IMG/VR virus record: IMGVR_UViG_3300038660_000022
Coordinates: 1 to 27,868 of that record
DNA from: a virus
DNA: 27,868 bases
Direction: 5' to 3' (one strand)
This document shows positions 5,934 through 13,186 of the stretch, in pieces. A program made the translations under genes and the position numbers. The notes under the pieces are model-generated. The model had not been told where the DNA came from, did no database searches, and worked only from the letters and a program-made list of their open reading frames with translations. How positions within the stretch are numbered: position 1 is the stretch's first letter; the number at the start of each line of letters is the position of its first letter.

Positions 5934-6078
5934 AGAAATACTAACAGAAGAAGAAAAACAAAGGGTTGCTGACTTAGCACGCAGCGAAGCTATTGAGAAG
6001 ATGAAGCTAAAGCCTAAATTCAAAGCATTACCGAGAAATAAAAGACGTGAACTATTACGTGAATGGCAGAAGAAATAG
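5926..6078 (+). CDS. Small basic protein bridging the terminase subunit genes, 50 residues
   Basis: ATG 5926 overlaps the end of terS by 8 bases, and TAG 6076-6078 lies 16 bases inside terL. The product has an acidic N-terminus (SEEILTEEEKQR) and a basic C-terminus (KLKPKFKALPRNKRRELLREWQKK), probably helical. It may mainly serve translational coupling between the two terminase genes, or be a packaging accessory. No family recognised. Confidence 0.6.
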   Translation: MSEEILTEEEKQRVADLARSEAIEKMKLKPKFKALPRNKRRELLREWQKK

Positions 6079-7382
6079 TAATTTCAGATAAATTCGCACC
6101 ACTATTTAGGCTTTTATCTTGTAGGGATGAAATAAAGAATGGCAATAAATCCGAATATCTTAAAGAATTATCTTTAGTTCATACTGTTCTTATCTCAGGA
6201 GGTCGGGACGCGAGTAAGTCCTATACTACTGCTTGTTTTGAGATTATTGCAGCTGCTGACTTCAATCATAGAATACTATCCACAAGGTACACACTTACAT
6301 CAACTGATAATTCTATAATTAAGACGTTAGTAAATAGAGCTGAAGATCTAAATAAAACAACTGATTTTGACTTTCAAGCAAAAGAAATCTACTCGATCAA
6401 AGGAAAGGGGTTAATTTCTATCACAGGACAGAAAACATCTTCAGGAAATCAAACCGCTAAACTAAAGTCTATTGAAGATTACTCCATGTTCTTAACGGAT
6501 GAAGCTGAAGAACTACTTTCTTATGAGGAGTGGGTTAAGATTAAACGGTCAATTAGAGCCAAAGACGTGCAGCCATTGTCTATTTTAGTATTTAACCCAC
6601 CAACAAGAGAACATTGGATAGCACAACGGTTCTACAAGAATGTTCCTGATGGGTTCTGTGGCATCATTGACAATGTAATGTATATTCATTCCACTTACTT
6701 AGATAACGGTAAGGAGAACATGGCTGACAACATTTGGCTCGAGTATGAAGCACTAAGAAAACAATATGAATATTACGAAAGTCTAACGAATGAGGAGCGA
6801 GAAATATGTGAATTTGAGTTAAAAAGAGATTGGGAGGACTATAAGTATAGGATATTAGGAGGGTTTAAACGACAGGCGGACGGTGTTGTATATGATAGAT
6901 TTGAAATTGGTGAGTTTAGGGATGACTTAGATTATGAGTATGGCTTAGACTTCGGCTCTAACGACCCTGATGCACTTACTAAGGTAGCTATTGACTTCAA
7001 AGAAGAAACTATCTATATTAAACAATTGTATCATAAAAACAATACTTCATTTGAGGGGCTGTTTCAAGTGTTAAAAACAAATGTAGGTTATGATGGTTTG
7101 ATTGTAGCAGATACGAGTGGTCGTAGGCTTATAAATGACTATTATAACATGGGTTTAAACATTAAGAAAGCCCACAAACAAGACAAGGTAGAGCAATTAA
7201 AACACTTAAAAGGATGGAAATTAGTAGTTGACCCTAACAGTCCTGACTTAATAGAAGCATTCAATAATTATTCATGGCATGATAAGAAGTCGGGAATCGT
7301 TAAACATGATTATTCGGATTTAATGGACTCTTGGCGCTATGCAGCATACGACCAAATTAACCCTGTTGTTGGAATAATGTAA
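6063..7382 (+). CDS. terL: Terminase large subunit
   Basis: 439 residues, the DNA-packaging motor. The ATPase half has the Walker A-like GGRDASKS (residues 46-53), Walker B with catalytic acid in FLTDEAEE (143-150) and a FNPPT coupling motif (177-181). The nuclease half has an RNase H-like core: YGLDFGSNDPDA with D296 (293-304), IVADTSG with D350 (347-353), and DYSDLMDSWRYA with D419/D422 (416-427). Length and order fit the PBSX/Terminase_3-type large terminases. It cuts concatemeric DNA and pumps it into the prohead through the portal encoded just downstream. Confidence 0.96.
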   Translation: MAEEIVISDKFAPLFRLLSCRDEIKNGNKSEYLKELSLVHTVLISGGRDASKSYTTACFEIIAAADFNHRILSTRYTLTSTDNSIIKTLVNRAEDLNKTTDFDFQAKEIYSIKGKGLISITGQKTSSGNQTAKLKSIEDYSMFLTDEAEELLSYEEWVKIKRSIRAKDVQPLSILVFNPPTREHWIAQRFYKNVPDGFCGIIDNVMYIHSTYLDNGKENMADNIWLEYEALRKQYEYYESLTNEEREICEFELKRDWEDYKYRILGGFKRQADGVVYDRFEIGEFRDDLDYEYGLDFGSNDPDALTKVAIDFKEETIYIKQLYHKNNTSFEGLFQVLKTNVGYDGLIVADTSGRRLINDYYNMGLNIKKAHKQDKVEQLKHLKGWKLVVDPNSPDLIEAFNNYSWHDKKSGIVKHDYSDLMDSWRYAAYDQINPVVGIM

Positions 7383-7439: not shown

Positions 7440-9068
7440 ATGATTACACCATACGAGATAATTCAATTAATTAAAGCTAATGCTTCAGTTCCTTCGTGGG
7501 TAATTACTGCACGTGAGACTAATGCAGAACTTAATGCCCTTGTATATGGAGAGAACTTCAAAGAGTTGTTGATTAATAATATCGAAAAGATTGAGGACAC
7601 AAATAGGGCAATTGCTCGTAAGAAATATTCTTATGACACACGTGATTTATTCGCTCGAATAATGGAGCCTAGAAATAATGTATTTGCTGCTGATGGAGGT
7701 TCTGAAAATTGGAGGGATGAAATCAATGAAAAACGTATTGAGGATATTAAAACATATTTCCAAAACTTCAAAGGTGGTAAATCTATTGAGAAATACATGG
7801 CTGAGAGTTACTTTCAGTTGTCAGATATTGACCCTAATGGATTGATATTCTTAGAATACAAAGCAAACGATGAAGGCTTAGCAGTCTATCCTACTTACAA
7901 ATCAATTCAAGACATTAGAACATACGAATGTAAAGGACAGTCAGTTAAATGGGTTCTCTTTGAGCCTTACGAGGTAACCAAGAAAGGAGACGTTTATAAA
8001 GTTTGGCGATTCGTAGATAAGGACGTAGACTATTCTATCATGCAGCGTAGACAAAGCTATGAGTACATGGATGAAGAGAGCTTCATTAATGACTTTAGAA
8101 CAGTGCCAGCGGTTATTCTTTCACCAATTCAAAAGATAGGCACAAACATACGCTTATCATGGTTGTTCTACATTCAAGAACTATCCAAAAAGTACGCTCG
8201 TGATGTATCTATTAAGACGCTATACGAGTTCTTACAAGGTTTCCCAAAGCATTGGAGGTATGTTGTGATGTGCATGAAGTGTAGAGGTAACGGAACACAA
8301 GATGACGGAGGTAAGTGTAATAAATGTTCGGGTACTGGTGAACTACGTAAGGGTGATGTAACAGATGAAATTCGCGTACCTATTCCAAACGATAAAGATC
8401 AACCGGTTGTTGCTCCAAACATAGCAGGGTTTATATCCCCTGACTTGGACACTCTGAAACACATGGAAGAAAGCCGTGTATCTTTAGAAAGCCTTATTGA
8501 GTATACTATGTGGGGAACGCAAACGGTTACACAAGGGAATAAGAATGAAACGGCAACAGGTAGGTACTTAGACGTTCAACCATTGATTAATAAACTCCAT
8601 GTATTCTCGGATTCAGCAGAAGAGGTTGAAAATATGTTAGCGGGCTATGTAATTGATCTTGTTGACACGCTCGATAAAGACGGTTCAATTTACACTAAGA
8701 CATACGGGCGTAGATTCATTATTGAAAGCCCTGACGTTTTGTTAGACAAATACAATACTTCAAAGGAGAAAGGCGCACCGATAACTATACTTGACAAGAT
8801 GTTAGAAGAAATAATATCGAGTAAGTATAAGAATGATATGGTAATGCGCTCTAAGATGCGTAAGAAGTCAGCTATTGAGCCTTATGTTCACTATGGAGTG
8901 CAAACTATATTTGACATATTCGGTGCTGAAGAAGCTGAAAAGAAAACTATGTTCACTAATTGGTGGGTAAATGAAGCAAATCAAATGGATGATGAAAAGA
9001 CTTTGAAGGCAGCATTTAAAGAATGGTTTAAAATGAATAAAACAGTAATTATAAAAACAGAATTATGA
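7440..9068 (+). CDS. Portal protein with embedded zinc-knuckle motif
   Basis: 542 residues, immediately after terL and before scaffold and capsid genes. Size, position and the helical C-terminal half support a portal, the dodecameric ring through which DNA enters and to which the neck attaches. No sharp portal motif is visible by eye. Unusually, residues 278-301 contain two CxxCxGxG motifs (CMKCRGNG at 278-285, CNKCSGTG at 293-300) spaced like half of a DnaJ zinc-finger domain, predicting one zinc knuckle inserted in the middle of the protein. The 3' end overlaps the next gene by ATGA. Confidence 0.85.
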   Translation: MITPYEIIQLIKANASVPSWVITARETNAELNALVYGENFKELLINNIEKIEDTNRAIARKKYSYDTRDLFARIMEPRNNVFAADGGSENWRDEINEKRIEDIKTYFQNFKGGKSIEKYMAESYFQLSDIDPNGLIFLEYKANDEGLAVYPTYKSIQDIRTYECKGQSVKWVLFEPYEVTKKGDVYKVWRFVDKDVDYSIMQRRQSYEYMDEESFINDFRTVPAVILSPIQKIGTNIRLSWLFYIQELSKKYARDVSIKTLYEFLQGFPKHWRYVVMCMKCRGNGTQDDGGKCNKCSGTGELRKGDVTDEIRVPIPNDKDQPVVAPNIAGFISPDLDTLKHMEESRVSLESLIEYTMWGTQTVTQGNKNETATGRYLDVQPLINKLHVFSDSAEEVENMLAGYVIDLVDTLDKDGSIYTKTYGRRFIIESPDVLLDKYNTSKEKGAPITILDKMLEEIISSKYKNDMVMRSKMRKKSAIEPYVHYGVQTIFDIFGAEEAEKKTMFTNWWVNEANQMDDEKTLKAAFKEWFKMNKTVIIKTEL

Positions 9069-9277: not shown

Positions 9278-9356
9278 ATTGATAGTATGGCTAGATGCTT
9301 ACGTGAAGGGATATAATAAAACAGTAATAATTAATAATCAAAACACAATAGAATGA
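9270..9356 (+). CDS. Possible 28-residue peptide
   Basis: ATG 9270 (8-base overlap with the gene before) to TGA 9354-9356 (4-base overlap with the gene after) fills the gap between two phage genes exactly. The product, starting MIKLIVWLDAYVKGYNKTV, has no recognisable feature. The neat overlaps on both sides are the only support. Confidence 0.3.
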   Translation: MIKLIVWLDAYVKGYNKTVIINNQNTIE

Positions 9357-9805
9357 GACAATTAAGTAAAAAAGAAGAGCAGTTCTTGATCGAAAACCAA
9401 ATTATTAAAGGTGTTCAATATCGTAGACACCTTGGTAGAGGTAATTCAGAAACATCAGTTGAAAGCGAGAAATTATGTGAACGAGTTGTAACAGCTAAAT
9501 ATGTTCGTGAAGTATGCAGTCAAGACTTAGGAGACTTTGTAATTGACTTTGAAGGGACTGAGCAGTATTTAAAGGACGCTCAAAAACGTAAAGAGTTCTT
9601 AGTTAAGAAAAGAGCAGCTGAAAAACTTGGAGACACTAAGTTGTTGAAGTCATTAGTAAGTGGTATAACTGAAGATGATGACGAAGATTTGGACGAGTTG
9701 AGAGATGAATATATTGAGGTTGTTGGTAGAAAACCACATCCAAGCATGAAAGCTGCGAAAATGCAGAAAGCAATTGACAAGGCGAATGAATCAAAAGAAG
9801 ATTAA
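9353..9805 (+). CDS. Hypothetical head/connector-region protein with HeH/LEM-like C-terminus
   Basis: 150 residues. The N-terminal and central parts are charged and helical. After a strongly acidic stretch (TEDDDEDLDELRDEY, about 106-120) the C-terminus reads like a HeH/LEM or SAP-type two-helix module (EYIEVVGRKPHPSMKAAKMQKAID), with the GRKPHPSM loop typical of this motif in phage head-region proteins. The motif is known from DNA- or protein-binding tails. The role here is not established. It lies 17 bases upstream of the scaffold gene. Confidence 0.65.
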   Translation: MRQLSKKEEQFLIENQIIKGVQYRRHLGRGNSETSVESEKLCERVVTAKYVREVCSQDLGDFVIDFEGTEQYLKDAQKRKEFLVKKRAAEKLGDTKLLKSLVSGITEDDDEDLDELRDEYIEVVGRKPHPSMKAAKMQKAIDKANESKED

Positions 9806-9823: not shown

Positions 9824-10624
9824 ATGAAATTCAATATTAACGGAAAGGTAGTGGAAATTGATAATGAAGAGTTAACAAAAGCCATTGAAGAGAAAAAAGA
9901 AGAGGTATCAATTAAGAATGAAGATTTATCTATTCGATCAAAAGATGAAGAAACTAAATTCATTGAGAACTTAAAAAAGGAAACAGGAAAAGCGAGCCTT
10001 GAAATGGCTATTAAGGAGACGCGTAACGACTTAGAGTTGGACTTTCAAGGTAAGACAATGGAAAACCTAATCGAAGCATTAAAAGCGAAGCATAAGACTG
10101 AGTTCTCGAAAGCACCAACCGAGCAGTTAAGCCAACTTGAAAGCGACTTAGCACAGCTTAAAGAAAAGAATAAGCAATTGCAAAGTGACTATGATACGTC
10201 GACAGGTGAGTTTGATACGTATAAAAAAGGATTAAAGAGACGCTCTGAGATTGAAAAGAACTTGCCTGACAATATGATCCTGCCTAAAGAAGATATGTTA
10301 TCATTAATTGATAATAAAATAAAGACATCAGTAGATGAAAATGGTCGTGTTGTGGTAATGGATGATGAAGGAAATGTAAAGAAGGATGACAACTTAGAGC
10401 CTATACAGTTATCTAAAGCCTTTGAAGAGTTCTTTACAACCAATAAGCAATACATTAAAGCTCCTGAAGGTGGTAGAGGTGGCGGAGATAGTTCTACTGA
10501 GACTAACAGTAAGTCTATTGAAGCATTTGACAAGCGTATGGACACTAAGGGTGTTGGGCGCAATTCAGTTGATTACAACAAAGAATTAGCAGCAGCACAA
10601 AAAGACGGTTCATTAGTGGTATAA
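9824..10624 (+). CDS. Probable capsid scaffolding protein
   Basis: 266 residues, highly charged, with a long predicted coiled coil (about 90-145, SQLESDLAQLKEKNKQLQSD), a basic segment after it (YKKGLKRRSEIEKNLP), a Gly-rich hinge (GGRGGGDSS, about 216-224) and a short C-terminal part ending QKDGSLVV. A charged coiled-coil protein encoded just upstream of the major capsid gene is the usual signature of phage scaffolds, which shape the prohead and leave or are degraded before packaging. No separate prohead protease is visible nearby. The gene is followed by a strong terminator instead of leading directly into the capsid gene. Confidence 0.8.
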   Translation: MKFNINGKVVEIDNEELTKAIEEKKEEVSIKNEDLSIRSKDEETKFIENLKKETGKASLEMAIKETRNDLELDFQGKTMENLIEALKAKHKTEFSKAPTEQLSQLESDLAQLKEKNKQLQSDYDTSTGEFDTYKKGLKRRSEIEKNLPDNMILPKEDMLSLIDNKIKTSVDENGRVVVMDDEGNVKKDDNLEPIQLSKAFEEFFTTNKQYIKAPEGGRGGGDSSTETNSKSIEAFDKRMDTKGVGRNSVDYNKELAAAQKDGSLVV

Positions 10625-10647
10625 CAGTTGATTATTGCATTTGAAGA

Positions 10648-10678
10648 GGGTGTTTCTTAATTGGAGCATCCTTTTTTT
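10648..10678 (+). terminator. Rho-independent terminator after the scaffold gene
   Basis: GGGTGTTT (10648-10655) pairs with GAGCATCC (10664-10671), including G-U pairs, around an 8-base loop, followed by seven Ts (10672-10678). It closes the packaging/scaffold transcript. Confidence 0.75.
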
Positions 10679-10707
10679 GTGTTTAAATGAAAATAAGTTC
10701 AATAGTG

Positions 10708-10739
10708 TTTGTTATATCGAATATGTTTACTTATATTTG
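10708..10739 (+). promoter_or_regulatory. Strong Bacteroidetes promoter for the two acidic small genes
   Basis: TTTG at 10708-10711, a 20-base spacer, then TATATTTG at 10732-10739, a near-ideal match to the Bacteroidetes consensus. It lies right after the scaffold terminator and about 30 bases before the gene at 10770, marking an independently expressed unit. Confidence 0.8.
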
Positions 10740-10769
10740 TACCAACGATAACAATTAAAGCTTTATATT

Positions 10770-11051
10770 ATGAAAAACGTTAACACAAGATTTATGAGAG
10801 CAAACCAAGACACGGAAACATTAGTTTTTGACTCGTTAGTTGAAGAGAATGGAATGAGCGAAGTGTGTAATAATGATTTTTCTTATGAAGACGCTTTGTT
10901 TTCAGATGGTTTTGTTGATGCTTTTGAAGATGGTTCTTTGCCTATTCTAGGTAGCGAAGTAAATGTTGAAGCGTGGGACAAAAGACATGGAGGTAGAGAA
11001 TACCACCACGCTATTTTAAACGACGAATGTTATGTAATATTCTTTAACTAA
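10770..11051 (+). CDS. Acidic hypothetical protein, 93 residues
   Basis: About 19 Asp/Glu against 6 Lys/Arg in 93 residues, giving a net charge near -13. The acidic residues are spread across a central stretch (FSYEDALFSDGFVDAFEDG, about 40-58). The end (WDKRHGGREYHHAIL, then ECYVIFFN) looks folded. It has its own promoter and sits in a cassette between scaffold and capsid genes. Small acidic proteins in such accessory positions are sometimes DNA mimics or host-takeover factors. No family is recognised, so this is only a suggestion. Confidence 0.7.
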   Translation: MKNVNTRFMRANQDTETLVFDSLVEENGMSEVCNNDFSYEDALFSDGFVDAFEDGSLPILGSEVNVEAWDKRHGGREYHHAILNDECYVIFFN

Positions 11052-11057
11052 ATAACT

Positions 11058-11294
11058 ATGACAACACACGAAGAGATCACAGAAGTAATTAACCAAATGG
11101 ATTTAAACCGTCCATTCACGCTATCAATCACAGAACTAAGTAGACAATGCTACATGGTTCGATTGGAGTGCGACACGCATCACTTAACGCATAAGGTGTT
11201 TCAATCTGAGTTCAATACTATGAGTGCTGATGTATTGGACTTTATATGTACGGATGAATATACAGAATTTACATTAAAAACTTATGAATTATGA
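11058..11294 (+). CDS. Acidic hypothetical protein, 78 residues
   Basis: Starts 6 bases after the previous gene and shares its promoter. About 14 acidic against 5 Lys/Arg residues. The mixed alpha/beta pattern includes FTLSITELSRQCYMVRLE (about 21-38) and a helical C-terminus. It shares acidic character and operon with the 93-residue protein, so the two may act together. Function unknown. Confidence 0.7.
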   Translation: MTTHEEITEVINQMDLNRPFTLSITELSRQCYMVRLECDTHHLTHKVFQSEFNTMSADVLDFICTDEYTEFTLKTYEL

Positions 11295-11340
11295 AAGATA
11301 AAACAAATAAATATAAAACCTATTATTAAATAAATAACAC

Positions 11341-11348
11341 TATCTTTG
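11341..11348 (+). promoter_or_regulatory. Promoter -7 element for the HNH gene leader
   Basis: TATCTTTG is an exact TAnnTTTG match, but the upstream -33 region is A/T-rich without a clear TTTG. Transcription would start near 11353, so the RNA would begin at the left arm of a hairpin and carry a leader of about 100 bases. Confidence 0.55.
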
Positions 11349-11351
11349 TAA

Positions 11352-11448
11352 AAGTGGATTGTAGTCAACATTTAGCGGTGTTGGTGATGTCTTTCTCCTA
11401 TGTAGGCGTGCCACTTCTTTTTAAACCATAGGGGATTAAATACATAGG
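11352..11448 (+). promoter_or_regulatory. Candidate structured, possibly switching leader RNA upstream of the HNH gene
   Basis: Closing stem AAGTGG (11352-11357) with CCACTT (11411-11416), followed by a T-rich run (11417-11422). An inner hairpin pairs CAACA (11366-11370) with TGTTG (11379-11383). CTCCTATG (11395-11402) can pair with CATAGGGG (11427-11434), while the overlapping CCTATGTA (11397-11404) can pair over 8 bases with TACATAGG (11441-11448), which ends 2 bases before the HNH start codon. The two pairings exclude each other, and the second would hide the ribosome entry region. No known riboswitch class is recognised. Confidence 0.5.
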
Positions 11449-11450
11449 AT

Positions 11451-11924
11451 ATGAGTAAATCAATTCAAGAACAAAGAGATAAGATCAGAGCCGAAAGGAA
11501 TCCTAAACGATTTCATGATGTTAGGCGTTTAAAAATAAATAGCAACAAGATCAAGGCTAAGAATAAAAAGCAGAAAATCAAAGATGTTTATAGGGCTGTT
11601 GAAGAACTTTTAGGTGAAGATTATTATTTGCCTAAGAAAAAAAGAAACAAAAAAAAGAAACGTGTAAAACGTGACTACAAAAAGTTACCCAAAGAACTGA
11701 CTGATAGACAAATAAAGTATAGAGATTACCTTTTAAGTTCTGAATGGGTGCAATTAAGAATTGATTTAATAAAGTTTAGAGGTTATATTTGTGAAAGATG
11801 CCCTAATATTAAAAACCTTCACGTACACCATAAGCACTACGATAACATATTTAATGAAGAGCCTGAGGACTTAGAGATAATTTGTTCATCATGCCACGCT
11901 AAAGAACATGGTAAAAAGAAGTAG
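11451..11924 (+). CDS. HNH endonuclease (free-standing homing type)
   Basis: 157 residues. The N-terminal 80 are extremely basic (KKKRNKKKKRVKRDYKK around 62-78), suited to DNA binding. The C-terminal HNH domain starts at YLLSSEWVQLR (about 93-103) with ICERC (C114, C117), LHVHHKHY with the catalytic His pair (H126/H127), and IICSSCHAKEH (C145, C148, H149). This gives a zinc-stapled beta-beta-alpha metal fold. Such enzymes nick or cut DNA and often spread themselves between phage genomes. It sits in an accessory cassette between scaffold and capsid genes with its own promoter and terminator. It ends in TAG. Confidence 0.9.
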   Translation: MSKSIQEQRDKIRAERNPKRFHDVRRLKINSNKIKAKNKKQKIKDVYRAVEELLGEDYYLPKKKRNKKKKRVKRDYKKLPKELTDRQIKYRDYLLSSEWVQLRIDLIKFRGYICERCPNIKNLHVHHKHYDNIFNEEPEDLEIICSSCHAKEHGKKK

Positions 11925-11973
11925 TTCAAGGTAATAGGGACGGTATATCAAATCAGTAAATAAACAACAAAAA

Positions 11974-12004
11974 CCCATTTAGTTAATTCTATTTGGGCTT
12001 TTTT
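11974..12004 (+). terminator. Terminator after the HNH gene
   Basis: CCCATTTAG (11974-11982) faces CTATTTGGG (11989-11997) with two central T-T mismatches and a 6-base loop, flanked by an A-run on the left and TTTTTT (11999-12004) on the right. It separates the HNH transcript from the capsid gene. Confidence 0.65.
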
Positions 12005-12015
12005 ATGCCTTGTAA

Positions 12016-12031
12016 TGTTAAATATTTAACA
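12016..12031 (+). repeat. Perfect 16-base palindrome upstream of the capsid gene
   Basis: TGTTAAATATTTAACA is a perfect palindrome lying between the HNH terminator and the capsid leader. Position and symmetry fit an operator for a dimeric regulator controlling late expression. It could also be chance in AT-rich DNA. Confidence 0.45.
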
Positions 12032-12033
12032 CA

Positions 12034-12060
12034 TTGTTTGTTTTCTAGCTTTATACTTCG
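12034..12060 (+). promoter_or_regulatory. Weak candidate promoter for the major capsid gene
   Basis: TTG (12034-12036), 17 bases, then TACTTCG (12054-12060) resembles but does not match the TTTG/TAnnTTTG consensus. A promoter is expected here because the region follows a terminator and precedes a highly expressed gene. A phage-specific late promoter recognised by a modified polymerase is an alternative. Confidence 0.3.
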
Positions 12061-12065
12061 TAAAC

Positions 12066-12129
12066 TTGTAAATGAAACTGGGATAGTTTCAAGACCCATT
12101 CGAGCAGGACGCTCAGCAATTACTTACAA
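12066..12129 (+). promoter_or_regulatory. Candidate structured leader RNA of the major capsid gene
   Basis: Outer stem TTGTAA (12066-12071) with TTACAA (12124-12129) encloses two perfect hairpins: TGAAACT (12073-12079) with AGTTTCA (12085-12091), loop GGGAT, and GAGC (12102-12105) with GCTC (12111-12114), loop AGGAC. The GGG in the first loop can pair with CCC at 12095-12097, giving a possible H-type pseudoknot. The element ends 19 bases before the ATG. No known RNA family is recognised. Confidence 0.5.
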
Positions 12130-12148
12130 ATCTTAAAATTAAAACAAA

Positions 12149-13186
12149 ATGGCAAATTACACAGCGTCCAATCTTGCGGTTGGTCAAGCTAAATTAAACA
12201 GCGCTTTCCAAAATGGAGAAATGCGCCACAGAGACCCCGTAGTATGGAAATCATTGTTAGGCAATCAAATGCTTGCAACTCCAAACTACGAAGCACTTAG
12301 AACACGTGAAGACCGTTCTTATGAGGTGAATTTCTTCAATCGTACAAGTAGAGCTTTAGGAACAGGTAGAACACACAACCCAGTTGGGGCTAGAGGTGAC
12401 TCTTCTATCATTACTCCATCTTTTGCTACTAAGTCAGATGCTTTTGCTAATTCAATTAAGCAAGCGGATAACAGTATTTATAGTTTGCAGGAAGAGTTTA
12501 ACGAGCAAATGATGAACACAGTAATTAACTTTGTTGAAGGTCTTGAGGACTTGTCAGCGAATTTCTTATTTAACAATCGTTCAGGAGTTAACGGAGTAAC
12601 ACAAGAAGGTGCTTTTAGTGCTGCAAATGATGTATTCGAAATAGCGGCTGCAGATGAAGAGCGTGCAATTCAAATTACTAAGACAGTGATGGACATTCTT
12701 AAATACCAAGGTACTGCTTTGGATATTTATTGTGACACTATTTCTTTCAACAAGTTTGAGTATTTAAGAGCGCAAGGTGGTGCTAACTCAGTTAACACGG
12801 CTTATCAGTTTGATTCAGGAGGTTTAACTTTCTATCATGTTCCTGATATGAATGCAGAAGTTGCGGCTTTAGCTGCTGGTATTTATAACCAAGGGTTCTG
12901 GATTGCTGCACCTAAAGGAATGACGGTAGCACTTGATTGGATTCCAAAACAAAATAGAAACGGTGTTGCTTCAGTTGCTAATCGTGAATATGGAAACATA
13001 ATCAATCCTATTGATGGAGCAAACTATGCTTTATACAAGAAGTTTGAAGCGAGCGATGAAACGGCAAACAACGGATTTACTCAGGACATCCTAGAGACTA
13101 CTGAAATATCTATTGATGTTGCTTTTCAAGATGCTCCACTTACAACTGCTGGTGAAACTATTTTACAAGCGTTTGCAATTCAATAA
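12149..13186 (+). CDS. Major capsid protein
   Basis: 345 residues, following the scaffold gene (after an inserted cassette) and preceding neck and tail genes. The N-terminus (ANYTASNLAVGQAKLNSAFQNGEM), the segment around residues 74-90 (THNPVGARGDSSIITPSF) and the long helix region (LQEEFNEQMMNTVINFVEGLEDL, about 113-135) fit an HK97-like N-arm, extended loop and spine helix. Later parts carry short strands and a Pro/Asn-rich region (PKQNRNGVASVANREYGNIINPIDGA). The family call rests on gene order, size and fold-like pattern rather than a single motif. Many such copies assemble into the icosahedral head. Confidence 0.85.
   Translation: MANYTASNLAVGQAKLNSAFQNGEMRHRDPVVWKSLLGNQMLATPNYEALRTREDRSYEVNFFNRTSRALGTGRTHNPVGARGDSSIITPSFATKSDAFANSIKQADNSIYSLQEEFNEQMMNTVINFVEGLEDLSANFLFNNRSGVNGVTQEGAFSAANDVFEIAAADEERAIQITKTVMDILKYQGTALDIYCDTISFNKFEYLRAQGGANSVNTAYQFDSGGLTFYHVPDMNAEVAALAAGIYNQGFWIAAPKGMTVALDWIPKQNRNGVASVANREYGNIINPIDGANYALYKKFEASDETANNGFTQDILETTEISIDVAFQDAPLTTAGETILQAFAIQ

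Follow-up and report, generated by a model that had tools for sequence, protein, structure and literature searches.

The scaffold-capsid gap of a probable Bacteroidetes phage group: a likely insertion hot spot and a candidate regulatory RNA leader of the major capsid gene

The gap between the scaffold gene and the major capsid protein (MCP) gene is, in our judgement, quite likely an insertion hot spot with turnover of its contents. It would lie at a transcriptional break, with an HNH endonuclease gene and a small-gene cargo acquired separately and with an MCP leader that acts in the mRNA. This leader is of greater interest than the inserted genes and probably represents a cis-regulatory RNA that has not been described before. 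The window analysed here is a whole IMG/VR virus record of 27,868 bases, which is classed as linear and is possibly a fragment. All features of the gap and its two flanking genes are given on the + strand.

The terminase gene (6063-7382) and the portal gene (7440-9068) are followed by two small genes, the scaffold gene (9824..10624), the gap and the MCP gene (12149..13186), and head-tail and tail genes are located downstream of the MCP gene. The product of the gene upstream of the scaffold gene (9353-9805) ends in a SAP/HeH-like tail. The scaffold gene matches phrog_30432 (5.4e-14), for which the PHROG function is unknown, and the MCP gene matches phrog_7231, annotated as 'virion structural protein' (4.8e-17). 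These matches fit the preliminary description of this DNA, which had placed an inserted unit between a scaffold gene ending at 10624 and an MCP gene starting at 12149. The window MCP can be aligned from end to end with the protein annotated as major capsid protein in Pan5, a cultured phage for which Pseudanabaena is the recorded host. Weaker alignments were obtained with Polaribacter phages P12002L/S and with phage MD05, whose MCP shares only 25% identity with that of the window. The host probably belongs to the Bacteroidetes; the promoters point to this, as do a match to a Bacteroidetes MAG and the relatedness to Polaribacter phages.

Relatives were gathered by MCP-based searches and have MCP identities ranging from 74% to 23%. 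Iterated HMMs placed the MCP in 84 loci and the scaffold in 82, and the scaffold relatives take the position upstream of the MCP in the mapped loci. After removal of near-duplicates, 59 non-redundant phages were retained, comprising the window and 58 others. Their scaffold-capsid gaps range in size from 3 to 2838 bp, with 23 gaps of up to 200 bp, 14 of 201-400 bp and 22 above 400 bp. The site is short in most relatives, in agreement with the earlier claim that the genes found here in the window are an insertion. Four distant relatives (L005, L006, L080 and L082) have no room for the hairpin leader element described below.

Signals were counted over 51 gaps of at least 100 bp each. A terminator-like hairpin was identified in 42 of the 51 gaps, compared with 15.8 expected from shuffles, and the motif TAnnTTTG occurs within the last 160 nt in 36 of 51, compared with 6.7 expected. 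The post-scaffold terminator and the Bacteroidetes-type MCP promoter are core to this phage family and are not parts of the insert. The scaffold and capsid genes are thus predicted to be normally separate transcription units in the family, which departs from the earlier statement that the two genes are normally adjacent. Insertions fall between the core terminator and the MCP promoter. This comparison suggests a reason why the gap tolerates insertions: the upstream transcript would already have ended and the capsid gene would restart alone from its own promoter, so that genes landing between the two would be harmless.

In the window, the intrinsic terminator after the scaffold gene (10643..10680; -17.1 kcal/mol) is present as first described, but it is a core element and was wrongly counted with the insert. 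A scan for sigma-70 promoters gave no excess over shuffles, and Bacteroidetes-type motifs were used instead. Promoter 1, which precedes the small-gene module (10708..10739), was found again, although its form is the Bacteroidetes-type TTTG (10708)-N20-TATATTTG (10732) and not sigma-70. Promoter 1 and its leader align with those of L057, the closest relative of the window (MCP identity 74%), with a score of 110.5, compared with at most 86 in 300 shuffles.

Two ORFs are located behind promoter 1. The first (10770..11051) encodes 93 amino acids with a pI of 4.2 and has no known relatives, with no protein match in IMG/VR, phages, NCBIfam or PADLOC. Its single-sequence structure model is unusable (pLDDT 41). 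Lacking relatives and with a poor model, this ORF is possibly spurious. The second ORF (11058..11294) encodes 78 amino acids with a pI of 4.6. The acidity of both products had been correctly noted, whereas the count of two genes may be one too high. The 78-aa ORF probably has a homologue at the same site in L057, namely the third small ORF there. The Smith-Waterman score between the two is 51, a value reached by 3 of 5000 shuffles, and the L057 ORF is the best match among 1994 small ORFs from all loci. Their best block is short, with 10 of 19 identities, and a wider genome-level search at E <= 1 missed this homologue; the homology is suggestive, not certain. Protein searches of IMG/VR and phages retrieved no relatives of the 78-aa ORF. 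Its model shows a ferredoxin-like alpha/beta arrangement (pLDDT 89.8). Structural matches to this model are of the common-fold kind only (best Z 8.5) and point to no function, and Foldseek returned no match at E <= 0.001 in PDB or BFVD. The 93-aa and 78-aa ORFs may constitute one cargo module behind a promoter common to L057.

The HNH endonuclease gene (11451..11924) encodes a protein of 157 aa with a pI of 9.9. Its earlier identification was sound: the protein matches phrog_119 (6e-7), with HNH PHROG families ranging from 6e-7 to 5e-5, and the H-N-H catalytic residues and two CxxC motifs are intact in the alignment. The Pfam HNH score is below the cut-off (14.5 vs 21.4 bits), and no match was found among PDB sequences. 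The HNH domain shares 68% identity over 65 aa with an HNH protein of phage MD05, which is encoded at another locus near a methyltransferase gene. An HNH protein in L008 is 49% identical; its gene has a promoter and a terminator of its own and is flanked by terL and a tape-measure-like gene. The close relatives do not all carry the same genes in the scaffold-capsid gap, and the window HNH is absent from this gap in all 58 other non-redundant relatives. With its HNH residues, its intergenic position, its absence at the site in relatives and its own relatives at unrelated loci, the 157-aa protein is probably an independently moving free-standing homing endonuclease.

The signals around the HNH gene are less clear. 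The second promoter has a -7 box, TATCTTTG (11341..11348), but no -33 TTG element, and is weaker than had been stated. A structured leader had also been described for this gene. The overall fold of the leader is no stabler than shuffles (z -0.02 and -0.57), whereas two arms (11396-11404 with 11441-11449) show a 9-nt complementarity that ends 2 nt before the ATG and exceeds chance; complementarity of 8 nt or more occurs in 0.36% of shuffles, for a feature that was chosen post hoc. It is possible that this pairing sequesters the start site. An HNH gene behind a foldable leader of ~100 nt could in principle point to a riboswitch, an intron or a guide-RNA (OMEGA/HEARO-like) element. Such an element is extremely improbable here, as the folding energy is ordinary, no IscB-type Pfam match was found, no Rfam match reached the gathering threshold and a permissive scan of the region returned nothing relevant. 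A group I intron or an OMEGA/HEARO-type RNA associated with the HNH gene was likewise considered and rejected, given that no Rfam match was found. Behind the gene, a hairpin with a T run (about 11968-12006; -10.1 kcal/mol) corresponds to the second terminator of the preliminary description, although it is imperfect and was unflagged by the terminator scan. As claimed, the inserted genes carry their own expression signals, in the form of consensus matches.

We propose that the HNH unit (11341-12006) was acquired independently as a free-standing homing endonuclease gene, which would carry its own -7 box, possibly a start-codon-masking leader, and a terminator. The enzyme would cut HNH-less genomes nearby, and repair would copy the gene together with its flanks and thereby spread it. 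The nearest HNH-less site available for comparison with that of the window is in a phage with an MCP identity of only 74%.

The gap contents in other phages bear on whether the insert moved as one unit. The gap of L057 contains a terminator, a promoter, three small ORFs and a terminator, without an HNH gene. A GIY-YIG/NUMOD3 protein is encoded in the gap of L014, and a NUMOD4-HNH_3 protein is encoded on the opposite strand in that of L015. In other phages, the number of small genes in the gap varies from one to about ten, and these have no assigned function. L031 and L015 share about 96% identity on either side of the difference, and L015 is longer by ~700 bp containing the NUMOD4-HNH gene, so that this pair provides an almost clean empty site for a different nuclease in the scaffold-capsid gap. 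Beside this insertion, the final ~130 nt of the scaffold gene have diverged between the two phages, which would fit an exchange tract accompanying the insertion. In L066 and L067, the gap ends are 96-100% identical and the middles, which hold the cargo, are different. Sister phages on the MCP tree mix long and short gaps.

The preliminary description had interpreted the region as a single mobile cassette, in which both small genes and both terminators arrived together with the HNH gene and were spread by the HNH enzyme. It is true that an HNH gene is present and that all parts lie within a single gap, which in most relatives is short. However, L057 has no HNH gene but does have a promoter resembling that of the window and the probable homologue of the 78-aa ORF. 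The upstream terminator and the promoter of the MCP gene belong to the core, and other relatives have different nucleases at the site without these small genes, or unrelated cargo. A single cassette is therefore improbable, and the idea of one HNH-spread unit was not retained. Because L057 has the cargo, with the probable 78-aa homologue, and no HNH gene, the HNH gene and the small genes are probably distinct modules sharing one hot spot. An ancestral core arrangement, from which genes were lost in the relatives, would agree with the part of the cargo that is common to L057 and with the separate MCP transcription unit, which is indeed core. This arrangement is nevertheless very improbable, since the HNH gene occurs in no relative's gap and the contents differ among sister phages, also among near-identical ones.

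Between the inserted genes and the MCP gene, the core MCP promoter (12037..12060) has a TTTG at 12037 and a degenerate -7 box, TATACTTC, at 12052. Two hairpins are located downstream of it. Hairpin 1 (12073..12091) has the form TGAAACT-GGGAT-AGTTTCA, and hairpin 2 (12102..12114) has the form GAGC-AGGAC-GCTC and lies inside 20 nt that are identical in L057. This hairpin pair (12073-12114) is the only GG-loop pair of such kind in the record. The MCP promoter and the two-hairpin leader were overlooked in the preliminary description.

Inspection of the gap ends showed that most relatives have 2-4 small hairpins upstream of the MCP gene; Pan5 has four, with NGT loops. Their stems vary and their loops recur within a leader, and include NGT triloops, GGTA-type loops, GGAC/GGGAT-type loops and [AG]AGATACA octaloops. 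MAFFT did not bring leaders with different loop classes together in a single structure, and the classes were therefore counted separately. Two or more hairpins of the same class were found in 24 of 54 MCP leaders, compared with 0.25 expected from dinucleotide shuffles, with loop classes that were defined from the same leaders later counted and in relatives that share ancestry. By this strict rule, the other 30 leaders are without two same-class hairpins. Same-class hairpin pairs occur at only 3 of 613 other gene starts of the same loci. Under a stricter rule with a spacing limit, 22 tandem occurrences were counted in 18 leaders (7.4 kb), compared with 5 on the two strands of about 1.4 Mb of other sequence. 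The spacing of the hairpins is about 24 nt, falling within 22-25 nt in 22 of 29 cases. The plain number of hairpins in the leaders is barely above chance (110 vs 93), and the signal consists of the loops, their spacing and their position.

Pairing of the stems was also examined. In a test that started from the loop sequences and did not require pairing, the arms were re-dealt among the occurrences; for each of three classes, the actual arms around the loops pair more than in any of the 500 re-dealings. Of the cells in nine NGT-class leaders, 98.9% pair, and both-side changes are found in nine of ten pairs; these hairpins were selected for pairing, so that the 98.9% is biased and the variety of pairs less so. 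The NGT class has 40 doubly changed cells, compared with 10.7 +/- 3.0 in shuffles. Compensatory changes are also seen within the clade of the window in stem 1, which is GAAACT/AGTTTC in the window, GAAGTA/TACTTC in L057 and GAAAGA/TCTTTC in L001. On the MCP tree, the loop class requires 6 changes, compared with 19 with shuffled labels.

No Rfam match at the gathering threshold was obtained for the window or for 12 relatives. In 854 kb, the covariance model R1 for NGT-type loops gave good E-values for none but the leaders on which it had been trained, and a search of 296 Bacteroidota genomes with the NGT-class model, run without a positive control, returned nothing. In the open-access literature, we found no paper on tandem hairpins in the capsid leaders of tailed phages.

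The stems of the leader are kept by compensatory change and its loops are conserved, as expected of an operator, and the leader is perhaps a protein-bound translational operator. Because the stems are variable and the loops fixed, RNA and not DNA would be the molecule recognised. The presence of several equal, regularly spaced sites would suggest protein binding at multiple sites. The putative binder is more likely to come from the phage, given that the loop class tracks the phage lineage and the NGT-class model found nothing in the Bacteroidota genomes; the MCP, the scaffold and the product of the gene at 9353-9805 are the first candidates. The leader would act at the level of the MCP mRNA, and its most likely function would be that of a multi-site operator for a putative loop-recognising protein; its simplest role would be to set capsid translation against that of the scaffold and other late proteins. 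We give roughly even chances to the full form of this proposal, namely a new family of cis-regulatory RNAs in tailed dsDNA phages, consisting of 2-4 hairpins ~24 nt apart, with loops that are specific to each lineage and are recognised by a phage (or host) protein evolving along with them, for multi-site control of capsid translation.

Stems at the 5' end are known to protect mRNAs, and the hairpins might serve only to stabilise a strongly expressed MCP mRNA at its 5' end, with loops that are not read by any protein. Hairpin 1 often starts a few nt past the -7 box, close to where the transcript probably begins, as this explanation would have it. Stabilisation alone, however, fails to predict the recurring loops, the near-constant spacing and the lineage-specific loop classes, and we consider it unlikely, though still to be taken seriously. 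If the hairpins of the proposed operator do bind a protein, they would be an unusually clear example of tailed phages controlling capsid synthesis at the level of RNA, and the natural loop variants would possibly provide a new set of orthogonal RNA-protein pairs.

The HNH gene and the small cargo beside the capsid gene are a further case of a known phenomenon. Phage morons are small promoter-gene-terminator units located between genes that are adjacent in relatives. The insert in the window resembles them in having its own promoter, small genes and a terminator between two late genes, as predicted from consensus matches. It differs from them in that the upstream terminator is core in this phage family. 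The MCP family is present in only one of 296 Bacteroidota genomes, that single genome being the centre of the search, which makes expression in a lysogen doubtful.

Free-standing homing endonucleases are found near essential genes, including capsid genes, often with other nuclease classes nearby (PMC10448857). In T4, segD is located between genes 23 and 24, segB and mobE have hairpins that mask the start site, and seven free-standing homing endonuclease genes are described as promoterless cassettes (PMC2988022). Like these seg and mob genes, the window HNH gene is intergenic beside an essential structural gene and has a patchy distribution. Other nuclease classes likewise occur at its locus, and predicted start-proximal RNA pairing is a feature in common with segB and mobE. 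In contrast to the seven promoterless T4 genes, the window HNH gene has a predicted -7 box and a predicted terminator of its own, and its phage is probably one of Bacteroidetes.

The MCP leader is most comparable to the coat operators of the MS2 type and to other multi-hairpin protein-binding leaders, with which it shares hairpins in the mRNA of a coat gene, conserved loops and free stems. The MS2-type operators belong to RNA phages and lie over the start codon, whereas the MCP leader belongs to tailed dsDNA phages and lies in the 5' leader. It further differs from the MS2 type in its 2-4 hairpins at about 24-nt spacing, in loop classes that differ among lineages, and in a binder that is putative.

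The gene located upstream of the scaffold gene in the window (9353-9805) matches phrog_590 (4e-7), and a SAP/HeH-like segment was recognized by eye at the C-terminus of its product. This protein is possibly a nucleic-acid binder and is a candidate reader of the major capsid protein (MCP) leader, the tandem hairpins 5' of the MCP gene (12073-12114).

Hairpins were also identified in the leaders of nuclease genes located between the scaffold and MCP genes of related loci, which were collected by MCP-based searches. The NUMOD4-HNH gene on the minus strand of the L015 gap has a leader with two hairpins, one at its 5' end and the other immediately before the ATG, where a T run follows the stem-loop; the same features were noted in the L014 leader. 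Based on sequence and fold, the loops of the two hairpins share 7-nt complementarity (GTACGAC/GTCGTAC in L015), and they may form a kissing loop.

Other genes were found in these gaps. A conserved gene encoding 45-65 amino acids (EWFF.LF..KKA...) lies between the scaffold and MCP genes and is confined to the clade of L013, L014, L015, L018, L019, L020, and L025-L027. The L045 gap carries a 279-aa ORF that resembles PAPS reductases/ATP pyrophosphatases by its N-terminal SGGKTS motif; its first 200 residues retrieved nothing from Pfam at E <= 0.01.

Insertions or apparent insertions were also noted in other genes. The 749-aa ORF at the terminase position of L013 (542-2791) appears to contain an intein-like insert (...AVRGTKVLTDNGYKEIQDFKIGDTV...) interrupting an otherwise continuous terminase. 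The portal protein of the window (7440-9068) contains a zinc-finger-like, DnaJ-type CXXCXGXG insertion at residues about 276-303, and a similar motif with two CxxC was found in the portal-sized ORF in 53 of 56 relatives.
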